Positions 39,306-48,522 of a DNA stretch of 58,855 bases are shown here, one piece after another. Source of the DNA: Granulosicoccus sp. (GTDB lineage Bacteria; Pseudomonadota; Gammaproteobacteria; Granulosicoccales; Granulosicoccaceae); NCBI GenBank assembly GCA_023301795.1, contig JALZVU010000168.1, forward strand, positions 1-58,855, in the 5' to 3' direction. The stretch's first letter is position 1. Each line of letters starts with the position of its first letter. Position numbers and translations under genes: made by a program. A model generated the notes under the pieces. The model searched no databases, was not told the DNA's origin, and was given only the letters and a program-made list of their open reading frames with translations.

Positions 39306-39764
39306 CTAGGCAGCTTTACTCGATGGTGATGCTGTATCTGCCTCGTCAAGACTAGCGAGAAGAGCATTAAATACATGATCACCTGACAGGTGTTCGGGGT
39401 TGAAGTTTGTCTCCTCAGCTATCATGAAAAAGCGATCGGCGGATGTGGAATCTTCTCCGACGTGGGCCATTGACCAATTGGGAAACGCTCTTTTTTCAAT
39501 TTGATTGAAATCCAGTATGACGATATCTGAATGTCGTCCATCACATTCAATACGATCAAAGGTTTTCTTAACGTTGTCACGAGGTCCTTCCAAGATTTGA
39601 GCAAAACAGGCGGTGTTGAACATCAGTGCACCTGTAATATCTTCCTTAACGTTCTTTTCCCGTGCCGATCTCAAAATTTGTACAATCTCTTTGCGAACAA
39701 TCGCCTCATCAGTTGAAATATTGTTACGGCTCAAATAGACCATTCTATATAAATCGCTATTCAT
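39306..39764 (-). CDS. BLUF-domain blue-light photoreceptor (short, single domain)
   Basis: 152 residues. The BLUF core spans about 5-100 with the flavin-site residues in place: Tyr10 in MVYLS, Asn38 in REKNVKEDITGAL, Gln56 in FAQILEG, Trp97 and Met99 in FPNWSM, and the DGRHSDI turn. These are the residues that rearrange their hydrogen bonds with FAD on blue-light absorption. About 50 residues with no known output domain follow, so it must act by binding another protein. The c-di-GMP enzymes elsewhere in the window are conceivable partners but are not adjacent. It is convergent with the Lrp gene. Confidence 0.88.
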   Translation of the reverse strand: MNSDLYRMVYLSRNNISTDEAIVRKEIVQILRSAREKNVKEDITGALMFNTACFAQILEGPRDNVKKTFDRIECDGRHSDIVILDFNQIEKRAFPNWSMAHVGEDSTSADRFFMIAEETNFNPEHLSGDHVFNALLASLDEADTASPSSKAA

Positions 39765-40313: not shown

Positions 40314-42584
40314 CTATTTGAAAAACGTGCCAATGGAGAAGTAGAAACGTTCAACATCCTCGTCATTAGCGCCGTAGCCAAGATACACAGGGCCGATGGG
40401 TGAGTCGAGTCCGACAAATGCGCTACCTGCTACTGTTAGTTCATCCAACGAAACATCTGAGCGCTCCGTAAATACGTCACCTGCCTCCAGAGAGCCGCCC
40501 ACGTAAATCGGCAGGTCAAACAGAATGGATTGCTGGTTGATTCGGCGATAGAATACTCCTGAGAAAAGCATTGAATGCTGCCCACGCAGCTCATCTTCTG
40601 CGAATCCGGATAGGTGCAAGAATCCACCCAACCGTGAGCTAACACGCGAATCGCTATCGGGTCCATTGGTAGTAGAGAGAGTTCCTAGAAGCGTTAACGT
40701 ATTCGCACCTCTCGTCAAAGGCTTAACGAAGAGCAGCTCTGTTTCGGAATAGTCGAAATCTGCACTTGCAAAGCGGAAGTGCTCAACACGAGACACGCGC
40801 GCCAATATTCCCACGTGTGGCCAGGAAAGCTCATCAAGTGTATCGATTGTAATACGTGCGAATGCACTAGCATCACGTTCGTCAGGTAGCTCAGTGGGTT
40901 CGAAGCCATTGGAGTCTGTAGTGGTAACTGCAAGTGACTCAATATTGCTCGATCCATAGCGCACCCCGAATCGCAATTCGCCCCATCGATCAAACAGGAC
41001 TCCACCATCCACACCGATGCGGATTACGCCGTCGCGCTCAGCTCCCACTGGAACATCACCATCATCAAAAAACGGTGAATAGCCACGCGCAAGCAGTAGA
41101 CTTGGTTCGATAAAGTATCGCTGACGCGGCCCAAACGGTTGGTAGAATTCATTTTCGATGCGTGTAACATCACCGATAGTCACTCTGCCGCGGTACTCAC
41201 CACCTCGTCTGTTCACCTGCGGGCGTGTATAGGACATGCCGAGCGCAAATCGTGTATCCGCGTTCAGGTCTGAGTCCAGTGCTAGTCCGAAACGGTAGAA
41301 GCGCAGTTGGTCGCTATAGGCCTGTGCGTGTAGTGTCAATTCTCCTAGTGGATCGACGTCGTAGCTGATTCTCTTGAAAAGGCCAGTTGCATAGATGTCC
41401 TCGATATCGTTACCCAGAGAGACAGCGTCCAGTGGAACTCCAATCTCCAGGTCAATAAAGTCACGAATCAGATCATCTGACAAGCTTGAGTCTTGCTGGA
41501 TACTGATAGAGCTAACCAATGGCCGACTTGCTTTGATACGCGCGCGCGTAAGGATATGCGCTTGCCAGTCTTGCTCGTTCAGAGACAATGGCGCTAGTGT
41601 GCTCGAGAGTGCATGAACTGAAGCTTCGCCTCGTCGTATCATCGTCGCAGCATGCGAAAAACTTGCAAAACCAAATTCATCCAGAATAGGTTCGATAAGA
41701 ACGTCTGTGTCGCGTAGCGATGACCGCTGTGCACGCACGCTTGGATCTGTTAGCAGTTTCTGTGTCTGCCGTAGAACCCCCGAAAATCCGACTATAGAGT
41801 CCGCTGGTAGTGGTGCTGAGCCAACTGATACCACAATGACACGATCACTGCCCATATCGCGAGCAGTTGAGACAGGCAAGTTGTCGATGAAGCCGCCATC
41901 AATGAGTCGTCTTCCATCAATCTCGACCGGTGGAATCAATCCTGGCAGCGCCATGGAGGCGAGAGTTGCAGCAGCCAGATCGCCCTTCTCAAGAGTCACC
42001 ACAGAGCCCGTTGAAAGATCCATCGCCACTGCTCTGAACGGGATGGGAAGCTCATCAAAATGGCTGATTGCACGCGAATCAACCATCAATGTCGATAACG
42101 TGAGCCACAGACTTTGACCTTGAACGACACCATCGGGAAGAACCGGCTTGCCATTCTTGAACGACAGATAACTATCAGCAAGAAATCCGATATCATCACT
42201 CTTTCGACGAAAGGTTGCTCGTTCACGCACGGTACTGTCGTCGAATACAGCGGTCCAGTCCTGATTGACAGCGAAGGTTTCGAGTTCCGCTCCGCTGTAA
42301 CCTGCAGCGTATAGTGCACCGACAACCGAACCCATGCTTGAGCCTGCAATCGCGTCGATGGGTATACGCAATTCCTCGAGCGCTTTGATGACGCCGATAT
42401 GCGCTATTCCGCGCGCACTGCCACCACCAAGAACAAGGCCTATGCGTTCGCGCTCGAGATCCAGTGCTGCGGGAACCGTTGGATTGTCAGCGCTGGTCGT
42501 GCCTTCATTTGCATTCGCTAATGATACAAGAGCAGCAAGCAGAACAGAAAACAACAAATTCACATACGGAGAGCGAATACACAT
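40314..42584 (-). CDS. PlpD-like patatin phospholipase with POTRA and outer-membrane barrel (type Vd autotransporter)
   Basis: 756 residues. Signal peptide to about 26, then a patatin domain: oxyanion loop GGGSARG (53-59), nucleophile Ser83 in GSSMG, catalytic Asp229 in DGG followed by FIDNLPV. A POTRA-like domain (about 365-440, with LFKRISYDVDPLGELTLH) and a 16-stranded-type barrel of the BamA superfamily follow, ending FYFSIGTFFK with a terminal aromatic/Lys. Relatives such as PlpD are phospholipases A1 that export themselves. It starts 21 bp after the cis/trans isomerase gene, so both are in one operon and both act on membrane phospholipids. Confidence 0.87.
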   Translation of the reverse strand: MCIRSPYVNLLFSVLLAALVSLANANEGTTSADNPTVPAALDLERERIGLVLGGGSARGIAHIGVIKALEELRIPIDAIAGSSMGSVVGALYAAGYSGAELETFAVNQDWTAVFDDSTVRERATFRRKSDDIGFLADSYLSFKNGKPVLPDGVVQGQSLWLTLSTLMVDSRAISHFDELPIPFRAVAMDLSTGSVVTLEKGDLAAATLASMALPGLIPPVEIDGRRLIDGGFIDNLPVSTARDMGSDRVIVVSVGSAPLPADSIVGFSGVLRQTQKLLTDPSVRAQRSSLRDTDVLIEPILDEFGFASFSHAATMIRRGEASVHALSSTLAPLSLNEQDWQAHILTRARIKASRPLVSSISIQQDSSLSDDLIRDFIDLEIGVPLDAVSLGNDIEDIYATGLFKRISYDVDPLGELTLHAQAYSDQLRFYRFGLALDSDLNADTRFALGMSYTRPQVNRRGGEYRGRVTIGDVTRIENEFYQPFGPRQRYFIEPSLLLARGYSPFFDDGDVPVGAERDGVIRIGVDGGVLFDRWGELRFGVRYGSSNIESLAVTTTDSNGFEPTELPDERDASAFARITIDTLDELSWPHVGILARVSRVEHFRFASADFDYSETELLFVKPLTRGANTLTLLGTLSTTNGPDSDSRVSSRLGGFLHLSGFAEDELRGQHSMLFSGVFYRRINQQSILFDLPIYVGGSLEAGDVFTERSDVSLDELTVAGSAFVGLDSPIGPVYLGYGANDEDVERFYFSIGTFFK

Positions 42585-42605
42585 TGTGTCAGCTTCGATA
42601 CAAAC

Positions 42606-44963
42606 CTACCGATTCTCAAGCCGCCCATAGTCCAAACGACCATACTCAATCGGATTCTCTGCGTACAAGACCTGATGGATATCGTCACTAAACCTCCAGA
42701 AATCTGCATTGGTTCTTCGTACGCCGTAGTTGTCAAGCAAGGTCTCATAGTCTCTTTCGGATTGCAGGGAGACTATCTCATCAACAAATTTGGTTATGTC
42801 CGCACTCTGTACTCGCATGAATACATTGGGATAGTAACCAACAACCCCTTTTGTCACGGTGATGGTATTTTCCTCTGGAAGCAATCGTTGTCCCTCAGCA
42901 AACAAGGAGGTGATATTGGTACGTGCATTATTGCGTGTAATGGACACAAGTTGACTTTCATCAGAGTTGTCATTGATCACTTGCACAACCGAAAGCTCAG
43001 GCAAAAACCGGGTATTTGAGCCATTGAAATCGATGAGTCGCTCCAAATTTTCCACGACTTGTGGATCTTCCAGCTGTTCGAGTGAGCGGGCGTGCGACAA
43101 AACAGGTGACATCCGTTGCTCTATCAATTCATAGAGTTCCTTTTTGTGATCTGATGTTTGATACATCACATCTGATTTGATGACATTATGTGTACTGGCT
43201 AGGTCTACATAGGCAGCACAAGCCCGATTCGTTTCTCGGTACCATTTACTTCTCTGCTCTGCTCTAGTCTGTTCAGGCAATAAAAATAGAAAATTTGATT
43301 CTGCCTCAATTCGCAGGAAATCCATCTGCAATCGCGAAAGAATTTGATGACTAACATTACCGTAAATGTCAAAGCCCGCAACCAGCAGATAGTGAATTCT
43401 CTCAAGGATGGAATACGTAATAACCCACGCGGTTTCCGGCGGCTTGCCGATCAGACCCTTTTCAACGGAAGCGCTGTTAAAGTGTCGAAAAACTGTGAGT
43501 GCTGCGTTGTCATTAACACCATCACCATCCCAAAGCAGATCAAGATTAACCATGTTTTCAGCACTGAAATTCTTGACTATAAATTCCTTTCTTGCCTCTA
43601 ACAGGACGCGCTCTTTTTCCGAATACTTGAACCAGGTTGAAATAGGAACAAAATTATTACTATCTGCATTCGCAAGCTCTAGCTCAGCACTATTGGTGTG
43701 AATAAAATTAGCAATATTGTCACTCTGCTCCAGATCCGGATCGAGAAACAGCACCCAAAATTGATCACGAATTACGTTCAGTGCTATCTGCCCTCTACAC
43801 ACAGGGCCTTTTATGAAATTCATAATCGTAAACTGAGCTTCATCGAGTAAAAACTTATACCGCGACGTTACCGGTATTTCGGCAAAATTAATAAAAGGAT
43901 TGTTCGTCGTTTCGCTGCTGTAACCTGGCAGCTCACTGATTTGATAGTCAGCATCGATAAAAAGCGACTGCCAGAGTTGCTTGCGCTTTGCATTCAACGC
44001 ATACGGCAAATGAGTTTTCATAACGATCGACTCCAGCTCTGGAATCAATCGATAGTAAACTCTCTTGACCTTGGGATCTTCATAAGGACGGCGAGTTGAA
44101 ATGAGCTCGACCGGTTCTCCGGGAGGTGTTTTTGAACGTACAATTTTAAAAAACCTCTCTGCTGATACCTCATCAAAATAGATATGTGCGAGGAATAAGT
44201 GTTCATAAATATAACGACTGGACAATCTTGATTTAAGAGACTCTTGATTGAAAAATTGTTCCCACTCATTAACTTGCTGTTGCAATTCGTCGCTGATACC
44301 TTGTCTTGCGGTGTGTCGCGCACCTTGCGTCAGCCAACTCTTTAAAATTTCTTGCTCAACACTGTCAAGTTGTGGCAACCCATAAGGCATTCCCCATAGC
44401 GGATGTTCTCGTGCGAAGTTCTCAACCTGACCCGCTGCGGAACATGTATGTTCTCGACCCACGTTAAAATTGAAGTCTTCACCAGATAGAATTTTGTCGT
44501 TGGGTAGAGGGTGGCGTTCCTTAAGCTCAAGAAGCTGATGCATGACGCCTGCCTGTTGATTGGCCTCAGGCACATTCTCATGTTCATTTAGTACTGCGAA
44601 AAAACCCTTATCTCGCCAGTCCGCTGTGGTGTGTGCATCTTCAAATAGCCGAGAAAGCCCTGTGGCTTTGAGGCGCTTTTGATTGTAGATATCCTCTGTT
44701 GTCGCTCCTCGGTCGATGCCTTCTATCGCCGTCAGCTTCAATTGGCAAGGCGCATCGTAACAGGCATGACAGCTGATACAGCGTTTTTCCAGAATGGGTT
44801 TAACCTCAGACCAATAGTCGACCTGACCATTCTCCAATGCACTGACAACACGATTATGCGGTTCTGCATCTCCATATTGTTTACTAAAGTCTTTCGTAGC
44901 AACAAACGCACAGCCAGACAGTACCGCTACGCATAAAGCGAATATATAGAGTCTTTTTTTCAT
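42606..44963 (-). CDS. cti: Fatty acid cis/trans isomerase
   Basis: 785 residues, the length usual for Cti. N-terminal signal with lipobox-like LSGC (residue 18), then a c-type haem site CISCH (62-66) inside the typical CISCHACYDAPCQLKL block; later family stretches include HPLWGMPYGLPQL, SRYIYEHLFLAHIYF and GPVCRGQIALNVI. Cti is a periplasmic haem protein that turns cis double bonds of membrane lipids to trans without prior release, a rapid response to solvents, heat or salt. AAAGG lies just before its ATG. Followed by the phospholipase gene after 21 bp. Confidence 0.93.
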   Translation of the reverse strand: MKKRLYIFALCVAVLSGCAFVATKDFSKQYGDAEPHNRVVSALENGQVDYWSEVKPILEKRCISCHACYDAPCQLKLTAIEGIDRGATTEDIYNQKRLKATGLSRLFEDAHTTADWRDKGFFAVLNEHENVPEANQQAGVMHQLLELKERHPLPNDKILSGEDFNFNVGREHTCSAAGQVENFAREHPLWGMPYGLPQLDSVEQEILKSWLTQGARHTARQGISDELQQQVNEWEQFFNQESLKSRLSSRYIYEHLFLAHIYFDEVSAERFFKIVRSKTPPGEPVELISTRRPYEDPKVKRVYYRLIPELESIVMKTHLPYALNAKRKQLWQSLFIDADYQISELPGYSSETTNNPFINFAEIPVTSRYKFLLDEAQFTIMNFIKGPVCRGQIALNVIRDQFWVLFLDPDLEQSDNIANFIHTNSAELELANADSNNFVPISTWFKYSEKERVLLEARKEFIVKNFSAENMVNLDLLWDGDGVNDNAALTVFRHFNSASVEKGLIGKPPETAWVITYSILERIHYLLVAGFDIYGNVSHQILSRLQMDFLRIEAESNFLFLLPEQTRAEQRSKWYRETNRACAAYVDLASTHNVIKSDVMYQTSDHKKELYELIEQRMSPVLSHARSLEQLEDPQVVENLERLIDFNGSNTRFLPELSVVQVINDNSDESQLVSITRNNARTNITSLFAEGQRLLPEENTITVTKGVVGYYPNVFMRVQSADITKFVDEIVSLQSERDYETLLDNYGVRRTNADFWRFSDDIHQVLYAENPIEYGRLDYGRLENR

Positions 44964-45681: not shown

Positions 45682-45705
45682 AAAAAAAGCCGCCATTAAG
45701 GCGGC
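45682..45705 (-). terminator. Rho-independent terminator of the beta-helix gene
   Basis: Stem GCCGCC (45689-45694) with GGCGGC (45700-45705), loop ATTAA, and seven A on the left (45682-45688), which become a U-tract in the minus-strand transcript. It lies 22 bp after the stop codon at 45728. Confidence 0.9.
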
Positions 45706-45727
45706 CTAATTCTCTATGACTAGAAAG

Positions 45728-48187
45728 CTACATTTGTTGAACTCTAAGCGACGATATGACGTCATTAAAGTTGATACCACGCAAGTCAGATACAGAGCCT
45801 GTAAAGGTCTCACATCTTCCTCCGAACCCACCATGCTGGCATGCATACACTTCATAGCCAGGTGCAATTTCGATTGCTGAAATCCGATCATTGCCGACGC
45901 TCGAAGCTCTTAACTCTCTGAAAGTAAGATCACCCTCGCCAACGCTAAGGGAACTACCTCGGAAATTGACATGCTGGTACACAGTGACTGGCAACGTCGT
46001 TACCTTACTTACCCGTAGCGACGATATGACATCATTAAAGTTGATACCACGCAAGTTGGATACAGAGCCTGTGAAGGTCTCACATCTTCCTCCAAACCCG
46101 CCGTGCTGGCATGCAAATACCACGTAGCCAGGTGCAATTTCGATCGACGAGATCCGATCATTGCCAACGCTCGACGTTCTTAACGCGCCAAAAGTAACAT
46201 CACCCTCGCCAACACTGAGGGAACTGCCCCCGAAGTTGACGTGCTGGTAGACAGTGACTGGTTGTGAGTCATTCACCAGATCACAAGCATCACCAATATT
46301 ATTATTGTTGGAATCAACTTGATCTTCATTAGTGATCGCAGGACAGTTATCTGAATCGTCGGGAATACCGTCGTTGTCACCATCTGGCTCAGCACAGTCA
46401 GGAATACCATCTCCGTCAGCGTCAGGTGATACGGATGTAGAGTCGAGCGGGTTGGATTCGCACTGTAATTCGTGCACGTCGGATTGCGAGTCGCCATCGT
46501 CATCGAGGTCGGCTCGATTACCAATACTGTCGTCGTCTGTATCGTCTCTTTCTGCCGCATCAAATGGAAAAGCATCTACGCCATTGTTAGCACCGTCGTC
46601 GTCAATATCAACATCACATATATCACCAAAGGGATCGCGATCGAGGTTGTCTTGATTTGCGTTTGCAGCTATGGGGCAATTGTCAACACTGTCATTCACT
46701 CCATCTTGATCAGAGTCGTCACAGGCATCACCGACACCATCACCAGGGCTAACGACATTCGATTGATTTGGATTAGGGGTTGCAGGGCAGTTATCTATAT
46801 CGTCCAGAATGCCGTCTTCGTCCATGTCGAATTCAATTATTTCGAACTCAAAAGAACCAATCTCACAATTGTCTATAACAATAACACCGCGTTGGTCAGC
46901 TGCCGCTGTGCAACCAAACTCGCCCGGCGCACCACCGGCGTCAATTGCTATGCTTCCAGGTTGAAGTGCAATAGTTGGCGTGGGACCACCGTTATCCTGT
47001 GGTGTACCGAATGTAAATAAATTCGCACCGTCTTCGATAATTGTGGCAGCGCCACACGTACCGTCATCGCTAATGTTGTTCTGCTGGAGGGCAAATAAAT
47101 TTTCGCTATTGGTTCCTGTTGCAGTACCCAGCTCGGCGCAATTCCGATTGCCGCCAGTAGTGCTGTTGCCAATGATCAAGTTAGCAGCAAGTGCCAATCT
47201 TGTTATTCGGCTTTCGATAAAAATGGCATCTCCGCCGTTACCACCAGTATTCCCAACCAGCGTATTGCGTGTCAGAAACGAGCCAGCAGCGCTGTCGTTC
47301 AGTGGCTGGAAAAACAAGGCACCACCACCAGTATCGGCGTTGTTGCTATAGAAAGTGGACAACGCGACTTCGATTTTCGATCGTGTCCAAATAGCTCCAC
47401 CAAGAGACTCTGCATCATTATTGGAAAAAGTAGACTCGGCTATGACAGTGGTACCCGTCTGGTTAATTGGAGCAATCGCACCTCCGCGGCTTGCTGAGTT
47501 TCCATTGAAAACCGATCGTAGGACTGAAATTTCCGAACCGTTGGTGGTAGCGATAGCGCCACCCGACGTCTCTGCACGAACTGAGTTCTCGGTACCGCCA
47601 TTCATAGCTATGGCTTGATTATTTTCAAAACTAGTAGATTCAATAAACAGTGAGGAGTCAGAAACTAAAATAGCACCACCAGCACCACTACCTACAATGA
47701 CGTTGTCGTTAAATGCACTATCAGAAACTTGCACTGGAATACCTGCGGAATAGACCGCAGCGCCGCCAGCTTCATCAACCGCCCCATCGACAGTGTCATA
47801 CCAACCGTCTTTGAAAGTCATTCGAGACAAAGTGAGACGTGAGATACCAAGAGGATCGCTATCAGTGATTTCCAGCAGTCTAAATGGCGTGATATCAGCA
47901 GCTGGTTGGATTGTTCCGTTTTCGATGGTGAGCAGATAACTGCCTTCGTTTGTAATCTTGATTGTGTTTGTCAGCTCAATTACGCCACCTTCAAGATCGA
48001 TAACATCATTTTCTTGATTAGTTGCACTGATCTCTAGTGCATCTAATAAATCTTGCTCACCGCTAACACGAAATGTCTCTGCCGAGGCGACGCCAATACC
48101 AGCAACGCAACTGACTAACAGTGCTGAAAAAAATCGGCCTGCTAATTTTGCCCTGACACGTGCCCTAGTTGCGACGAGATCCTGCAT
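45728..48187 (-). CDS. Secreted beta-helix protein with thrombospondin-3 repeats and two beta/gamma-crystallin domains
   Basis: About 819 residues from ATG 48187 (GGATGG lies 9 bases upstream; the longer frame from 48247 would bury the signal peptide). Signal peptide ends near VASA/ETF. Then a right-handed beta-helix of about 370 residues, many repeats carrying GGAI and NNxA turns, as in pectate-lyase-like and adhesin folds. Next a run of thrombospondin type 3 Ca-binding repeats (DxDxDGxxDxxDNCP, about 450-640), and two beta/gamma-crystallin domains (VTVYQHVNF start) that usually bind Ca. No cell-anchor tail is seen. Calcium-stabilised adhesion or matrix role is inferred. Confidence 0.8.
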   Translation of the reverse strand: MQDLVATRARVRAKLAGRFFSALLVSCVAGIGVASAETFRVSGEQDLLDALEISATNQENDVIDLEGGVIELTNTIKITNEGSYLLTIENGTIQPAADITPFRLLEITDSDPLGISRLTLSRMTFKDGWYDTVDGAVDEAGGAAVYSAGIPVQVSDSAFNDNVIVGSGAGGAILVSDSSLFIESTSFENNQAIAMNGGTENSVRAETSGGAIATTNGSEISVLRSVFNGNSASRGGAIAPINQTGTTVIAESTFSNNDAESLGGAIWTRSKIEVALSTFYSNNADTGGGALFFQPLNDSAAGSFLTRNTLVGNTGGNGGDAIFIESRITRLALAANLIIGNSTTGGNRNCAELGTATGTNSENLFALQQNNISDDGTCGAATIIEDGANLFTFGTPQDNGGPTPTIALQPGSIAIDAGGAPGEFGCTAAADQRGVIVIDNCEIGSFEFEIIEFDMDEDGILDDIDNCPATPNPNQSNVVSPGDGVGDACDDSDQDGVNDSVDNCPIAANANQDNLDRDPFGDICDVDIDDDGANNGVDAFPFDAAERDDTDDDSIGNRADLDDDGDSQSDVHELQCESNPLDSTSVSPDADGDGIPDCAEPDGDNDGIPDDSDNCPAITNEDQVDSNNNNIGDACDLVNDSQPVTVYQHVNFGGSSLSVGEGDVTFGALRTSSVGNDRISSIEIAPGYVVFACQHGGFGGRCETFTGSVSNLRGINFNDVISSLRVSKVTTLPVTVYQHVNFRGSSLSVGEGDLTFRELRASSVGNDRISAIEIAPGYEVYACQHGGFGGRCETFTGSVSDLRGINFNDVISSLRVQQM
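45748..46261. repeat. Tandem duplication of a 244-bp crystallin-encoding unit
   Basis: Units at 45748-45991 and 46018-46261, offset by 270 bp (90 codons), are about 85-90% identical by eye across their length, with changes mostly at third positions. They encode the two crystallin domains and show a fairly recent internal duplication. Confidence 0.75.
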
Positions 48188-48522
48188 TGAACTGCCATCC
48201 ATAGAATTGAAAAAAATTAGTACACTGAGTGCTGTAGATAGAGACATTAAGTCTCATGGCACAACCGCTTAAAGTGTACGGTAGTTCTGATAGACAGACA
48301 GTACTTTTGCCTAAGTCTTAGGCAATAAGTTTGCAGGATATATATTGCCGAGCTTCATCTGGACTACCGCGGCTACGCTGCTAACAACACATAATTCTAC
48401 TTTTAGGCTTTCCTCGATTTTGCGCTCTAGCTCACAAAAAACAGTAACTCTCAAGCCCTGTAAGTCGGCAATGGCAACCTATCGTGCTGGTGCTTGCAAA
48501 GCGATTTATCCAAGATGTTTTT
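48188..48522. promoter_or_regulatory. Upstream region of the beta-helix gene with a perfect 19-bp palindrome
   Basis: This 335-bp gap follows the GntR gene. It holds TTGCCTAAGTCTTAGGCAA at 48307-48325, a perfect palindrome about a central T. At 120 bp upstream of the beta-helix gene start it may be an operator for that gene, possibly bound by the GntR regulator next door. As a terminator it would lack a U-tract. Confidence 0.4.

Follow-up and report, generated by a model that had tools for sequence, protein, structure and literature searches.

The cti and patatin-Omp85 genes and their surroundings

The window, by which we mean the whole 58,855-nucleotide stretch of DNA that was analysed, carries a gene for a fatty acid cis/trans isomerase (cti) followed by a gene for a PlpD-type patatin-Omp85 protein. 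Both open reading frames are intact and lie on the same (minus) strand, and 21 bp separate the stop codon of cti from the start codon of the patatin gene. The original prediction had given this spacing, which was confirmed at its place and on its strand, and the shared strand and short gap are also consistent with the operon-like layout that it proposed. The pair stands in free space, with 764 bp to the upstream gene and 549 bp to the downstream gene. A terminator-like hairpin that follows the upstream gene perhaps sets the pair apart, and this is suggestive at most because terminator-like sites are no more common in the sequence scanned (4 sites) than in its shuffles (mean of 5.0). A search upstream of cti for a sigma-70-like promoter gave no match, and searches for non-coding RNAs and tRNAs within the window found none. 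The neighbouring genes encode a protein with thrombospondin type 3 repeats, whose C-terminal beta/gamma crystallin region is built of two similar halves, and a BLUF protein. The positions of the genes and of the features within them are collected in Table 1.

Table 1. Genes and predicted features at the cti-patatin locus, in window coordinates
Feature	Position	Strand	Basis or remark
Protein with thrombospondin type 3 repeats and C-terminal beta/gamma crystallin region	45728-48247	-	
Terminator-like hairpin, 3' of upstream gene	45687-45707	-	pattern match, weak
cti, fatty acid cis/trans isomerase, 785 aa	42606-44963	-	first of pair; Pfam CTI
Cti lipobox LSGC, residues 15-18 of signal sequence, Ala at +2	44910-44921	-	pattern, strict test; coordinates computed from the open reading frame
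Cti heme c motif CISCH (C62, C65, H66)	44766-44780	-	invariant in 30/30 aligned Ctis
Cti Met192, likely distal heme ligand (inferred equivalent of P. aeruginosa Met163)	44388-44390	-	sole invariant Met, 30/30 rows
Gap from cti stop to patatin start, 21 bp	42585-42605	-	
PlpD-type patatin-Omp85 gene, 756 aa	40314-42584	-	second of pair; Pfam Patatin, PlpD chain 5fqu
Patatin domain, residues 50-241	41862-42437	-	
Predicted catalytic Ser83 of GSSMG	42336-42338	-	invariant in 28/28
Predicted catalytic Asp229 of DGG	41898-41900	-	invariant in 28/28
Single POTRA-like domain, residues ~357-425	41310-41516	-	AlphaFold2 strand/helix order; weak, below-cut-off BamA match at 357-409
16-stranded beta-barrel, residues 429-751	40332-41300	-	AlphaFold2 model; BamA/TamA matches; Omp85 Pfam below cut-off
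BLUF blue-light sensor protein, next gene downstream	39306-39764	-	

The encoded proteins and their known relatives

The window Cti scored 854 bits against the Pfam CTI profile (PF06934, cut-off of 25) and matched it at full length (positions 3-692 of 692), and the second protein scored 114 bits against Pfam Patatin (cut-off of 27.7) and 256 bits against PlpD of P. aeruginosa (5fqu, E 6.9e-75). These scores fit the gene identities of the original prediction, cti and a PlpD-like gene.

The N-terminus of the window Cti has a hydrophobic start and a lipobox, which by pattern form an export signal of the lipoprotein type. The protein is a predicted lipoprotein and hence would be tethered to a membrane, probably the outer one. 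A strict lipobox was found in all three of the Ctis that are linked to a patatin and in 70 of the 102 Ctis tested, where 0.6 would be expected from shuffled sequences; one of the 103 Ctis in the set, which is without the heme motif, was left out of this count. None of the Ctis with a strict lipobox has Asp at +2. In enterobacteria, lipoproteins without Asp at this position are sorted to the outer membrane, and by this rule the sequences point to an outer-membrane location. The soluble, Pseudomonas-type Cti looks like the minority form in this sample of 102 sequences. Conservation was assessed in an alignment of 30 of the 103 Ctis. The distal heme ligand of P. aeruginosa Cti is Met163 (PMC11727003), to which Met192 of the window Cti most likely corresponds. 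The model of the window Cti (pLDDT of 86.8) had no match in the PDB at E 0.001 or better, and the Z values from VIA-align were only middling. There is weak but repeated resemblance to SCP2 sterol/fatty-acid carriers in residues 630-785 (Z up to 6.1), and FoxE is a match for residues 46-218 (Z of 6.7); values of this size may arise by chance.

In the AlphaFold2 model of the window patatin (mean pLDDT of 86) the patatin domain is followed by a single POTRA-like unit and a barrel of 16 strands, and its Foldseek matches include PlpD, BamA, and TamA. The Pfam Omp85 score was 20.2 bits, which is below the cut-off of 24. For conservation of the predicted catalytic residues, 28 of 38 patatins were aligned.

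The Ctis of P. aeruginosa, P. putida, and P. oleovorans share with the window Cti the CTI domain, the heme c CXXCH motif, and the invariant Met matching the distal ligand. In contrast to the lipoprotein-type signal found here, ordinary signal peptides are reported for the Ctis of P. aeruginosa PAO1 and P. capeferrum (PMC11596728), and cti is described as monocistronically transcribed (PMC5847196), unlike the operon-like pair in the window. The window Cti resembles those of Halopseudomonas in signal type, since a lipoprotein signal was predicted there in six of the eight strains that carry cti; the passages on these strains make no mention of a linked phospholipase (PMC11596728). The Halopseudomonas strains assayed had no significant Cti activity, and since the Cti of H. 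oceani has an ordinary signal and is silent all the same, tethering alone does not explain this silence (PMC11596728). Like PlpD and FplA ("type Vd"), the window patatin has a signal sequence, a patatin domain with a Ser-Asp dyad, one POTRA-like unit, and a 16-stranded barrel. It differs from them in being encoded directly behind cti, and whereas dimer and topology are known for PlpD, the window protein is described from its sequence and model. Both families are known, so the novelty is in the arrangement and not in the kind of enzyme. A literature search, with subscription journals mostly outside its coverage, found among the papers listed none that joins Cti with a patatin or a phospholipase.

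Further cti-patatin pairs and the frequency of linkage

The source genome (G000) is a draft of 5.78 Mb in 313 contigs with a contamination estimate of 2.95%. Another of its contigs, C138 (9.1 kb), holds a second cti-patatin pair, in which cti is again first and the genes overlap by 4 bp (ATGA). The patatins of the window and C138 are 78% identical (92% in the patatin domain) and are sisters in the tree (SH-aLRT of 100), with a dS of ~2.5, which is near saturation of silent sites, and a dN/dS of ~0.06. The high dS and low dN/dS, together with the identity of the patatin domains, indicate that both copies are old and constrained. The Ctis of the two pairs, by contrast, are 40% identical and fall in separate clades. 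The C138 Cti is sister to the Cti of a congener, G026 (61% identical, support of 100/100), whereas the window Cti belongs to a set of seven (100/98) with sequences from an uncultured Pseudomonadales bacterium, a Cellvibrionaceae bacterium, G976, and three congeners. In an AU test that took in 34 Ctis, sisterhood of the window and C138 Ctis was rejected (p of 0.0023) at a cost of 275 log-likelihood units. The trees were built from open reading frames of at least 600 aa scoring above 250 bits, which gave 103 different Ctis from 125 of 132 hits and 38 different patatins from 49 of 60 hits; one Cti row is a shortened copy of another (L129 of L117).

Because the patatins are sisters and the Ctis lie in separate clades, two unrelated Ctis are each followed by a member of one patatin lineage, an arrangement that, as judged from the sequences, has been maintained for a long time. 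Both the tree of the Ctis and the AU test speak against duplication of the pair as one unit, which was rejected, and the identities in blocks agree on the whole. Compared in 13 blocks, the Ctis of C138 and G026 are about equally distant from the window Cti, including an equal last block; the exceptions are two blocks that are closer to the C138 Cti, the next-to-last by 11 points and a middle one by 9. There is thus little sign of a recombined 3' tract in the window Cti. The origin of C138 was also considered. Its GC content (51.6%) and tetranucleotide correlation (0.85) lie within the ranges of 18 other host stretches (46.6-52.7% and 0.777-0.922; two of 20 stretches, shorter than 5 kb, were omitted), and a gene flanking its pair has DNA identities of 86% to congener G025 and 82% to G027. 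Among the best 11 of 26 candidates, no second copy of this flanking gene was found in G000 at the DNA level. The composition and the flanking-gene identities indicate that C138 is native or comes from a close relative, and the argument from the two Ctis holds either way.

A third pair is found in G363, a draft genome from another family, in which the order is opposite: the patatin gene is first and cti follows 18 bp downstream. The linked Cti is distant (470 bits against Pfam CTI) and has an intact heme motif, and G363 carries a further Cti and a further patatin on other contigs. In G148, which belongs to the same genus, cti and patatin lie on different contigs, and among the five genomes of this family Cti is present in four, patatin in three, and an adjacent pair in one.

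Linkage was then counted in larger samples, which overlap, and in which pairs split by contig ends or unscored third copies would escape. In the class sample (369 genomes), Cti was found in 44 genomes, patatin (E 1e-30) in 40, and both in nine, with adjacency in two (G000 and G363). Both genes occur in 22 genomes of the phylum sample (398 genomes, at most two candidates scored per genome), with adjacency only in G000. In the order around G208 (341 genomes, again at most two candidates per genome), at least 16 genomes have both and none has them adjacent, among the best 124 of 151 matching genomes. Besides G000 and G363, 36 genomes carry both genes with no adjacent pair among the matches listed, and linkage is therefore not required. 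Separate cti and PlpD genes are the pattern listed for seven genomes of one family (f160), presumably the Pseudomonadaceae. The flanks of 26 named Cti loci, up to 10 kb and in some cases shorter, hold no adjacent patatin. In the plasmid collection, a Cti relative occurs in 10 records and a patatin relative in 26; the record of Photobacterium sp. DA100 has both, more than 1 Mb apart, among the best 20 of the 26 patatin records.

Within the family of the source genome the pair occurs in one of 48 genomes. Six other family genomes have Cti (G026 and five congeners), and in these no patatin adjoins Cti, nor is there a close full-length relative of the window patatin anywhere. The class, phylum, order, family, and named-locus counts reject a widespread cti-patatin operon. 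The original prediction had named adjacency in a single strain as the outcome that would speak against it and had called for a count of cti and type Vd patatin neighbours across genomes. The family count comes close to that outcome, which is countered by the second pair on C138 and the reversed pair in G363, and the count across genomes shows adjacency to be rare and present in both G000 and G363. The pairing thus seems to be rare and to have arisen more than once.

Other arrangements around cti were also noted. A same-strand open reading frame lies close behind Cti in 31 of the 99 loci with enough sequence, and none of the 10 that were checked in Pfam is a lipid enzyme. In congener G037 (L003:191-1495 / L040), cti overlaps by 1 bp a 435-aa TraF_2 gene (PF13729, 80 bits), which we take to be of an outer-membrane barrel type and so a possible outer-membrane protein. 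A Haliea MAG (L035:3668-11851) has a patatin gene ~4 kb before cti with three same-strand genes between them and was not counted as a pair. Searches with this patatin and the three intervening genes at E 1e-6 gave no match in four other Halieaceae loci (L031, L032, L036, and L038) or in L027, and one weak match in L033.

Possible roles of the linked genes

Published work on both enzymes bears on how the pair could function. Pure P. aeruginosa Cti is reported to give 0% isomerisation of liposomal POPC or POPE alone; with free 16:1 it isomerised 3.3% of POPC, 15.1% of POPE, and 10.8% of a mixture, and no protein partner was needed (PMC11727003). Earlier purified Cti was active on free fatty acids and inactive on esters, and according to the 2024 liposome work the role of the free acid in activity on phospholipid "remains to be clarified" (PMC11727003). 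PlpD, the prototype of its group, is described as a homodimer with phospholipase activity whose patatin domain stays in the periplasm, and release of the passenger outside the cell (type Vd secretion) is disputed for PlpD itself (PMC11116518). Deletion of plpD raises many phospholipids and the protein probably removes endogenous lipids from the periplasmic side, while the exact role of PlpD-type proteins is given as unknown (PMC11116518).

Since the patatin domain of PlpD is periplasmic, both enzymes plausibly face the same compartment and would encounter each other at the leaflet on the periplasmic side. That Cti acted on liposomes only when free 16:1 was present better supports cleavage before or alongside isomerisation, and a patatin releasing acid beside Cti would supply what is required, which favours a feeding or priming role over isomerisation followed by cleavage. 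The apparently repeated origin of the pairing also suggests that the patatin helps Cti to reach its substrate. Our preferred reading as a whole, to which we give a probability of roughly 0.45, is that cti and the patatin-Omp85 gene form a bicistronic unit and that the patatin frees fatty acids in the periplasm-facing leaflet, feeding and unlocking the lipoprotein Cti. The co-transcription, the co-localisation, and the feeding or priming step are what we infer for the source organism. The unit would remodel lipids in the outer-membrane leaflet that faces the periplasm. As a lipoprotein, Cti would be anchored in a membrane, which is probably the outer membrane, and the patatin-Omp85 protein, by analogy with PlpD, would be an outer-membrane protein whose phospholipase domain lies in the periplasm. 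In stressed cells, cleavage of phospholipids by the patatin would yield lysophospholipids and free unsaturated fatty acids. These acids would be a good substrate for Cti and may also loosen the leaflet, so that Cti could reach acyl chains still held in phospholipid, and conversion of these chains from cis to trans would stiffen the membrane.

This reading departs from the original prediction in two respects. The patatin had been called self-exported, which is outdated given that the PlpD patatin domain stays in the periplasm (PMC11116518), and isomerisation had been placed first and cleavage second, which is less likely given the inactivity of Cti on liposomes without free 16:1 (PMC11727003). 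Its suggestion that the enzymes may supply each other agrees with the need of Cti for free acid, by analogy with the P. aeruginosa enzyme (PMC11727003). Several observations count against the preferred reading: linkage is absent from most genomes that have both genes, G363 has unlinked copies of each besides its pair, the six other family genomes with Cti have neither an adjacent patatin nor a close full-length relative of it, no sigma-70-like promoter match precedes cti in the window, G000 and G363 are both drafts, and Cti worked in the liposome assay without a partner protein (PMC11727003).

The alternative that survives best, although we consider it unlikely, is that the genes share regulation only, both answering outer-membrane lipid stress and travelling together while neither enzyme affects the reaction of the other. 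Both enzymes act on envelope lipids, and the 36 other genomes in which no adjacent pair was listed are as this alternative would have them. The occurrence of a single patatin lineage behind Ctis that are unrelated to each other speaks for a tighter connection, though selection for co-regulation alone could still produce this arrangement. Slightly less probable is the sequence closest to the original prediction, in which isomerisation by Cti comes first and the patatin afterwards clears the trans-acyl phospholipids, resetting the membrane after stress. We know of no patatin with a preference for trans chains, and the gene order, with cti first in two of the three pairs and reversed in G363, points both ways. 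The effect of plpD deletion and the periplasmic action of PlpD fit such a removal (PMC11116518), which leaves unexplained why Cti requires free fatty acid (PMC11727003). Finally, it is very unlikely that the window pair is accidental and that contamination by a relative brought in the C138 pair: the draft state and contamination estimate of the genome and the single occurrence in the family would allow it, but the composition of C138 lies inside the host range, a foreign C138 would still mean two congeners with sister patatins behind unrelated Ctis, and the G363 pair is independent, with a chance of one adjacency among ~37 genomes of 0.01-0.02 by rough arithmetic, which is not a test.

Returning to the reading in which the patatin feeds and unlocks Cti, a bolder extension, which we regard as a long shot, is that lipoprotein Ctis, the majority form in our sample, depend on a phospholipase that releases free fatty acid next to them, with the cti-patatin operon as the physically joined version of a two-enzyme lipid isomerisation system, the parts of which usually lie scattered. 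If true, such a dependence would account for the inactivity of pure Cti on phospholipid, and perhaps also for the apparent silence of the Halopseudomonas Ctis, most of which are of the lipoprotein type. The question of how Cti reaches acyl chains that are part of a phospholipid is an old one, and a natural cti-patatin operon would propose one answer both to it and to the question of what PlpD-type proteins do.
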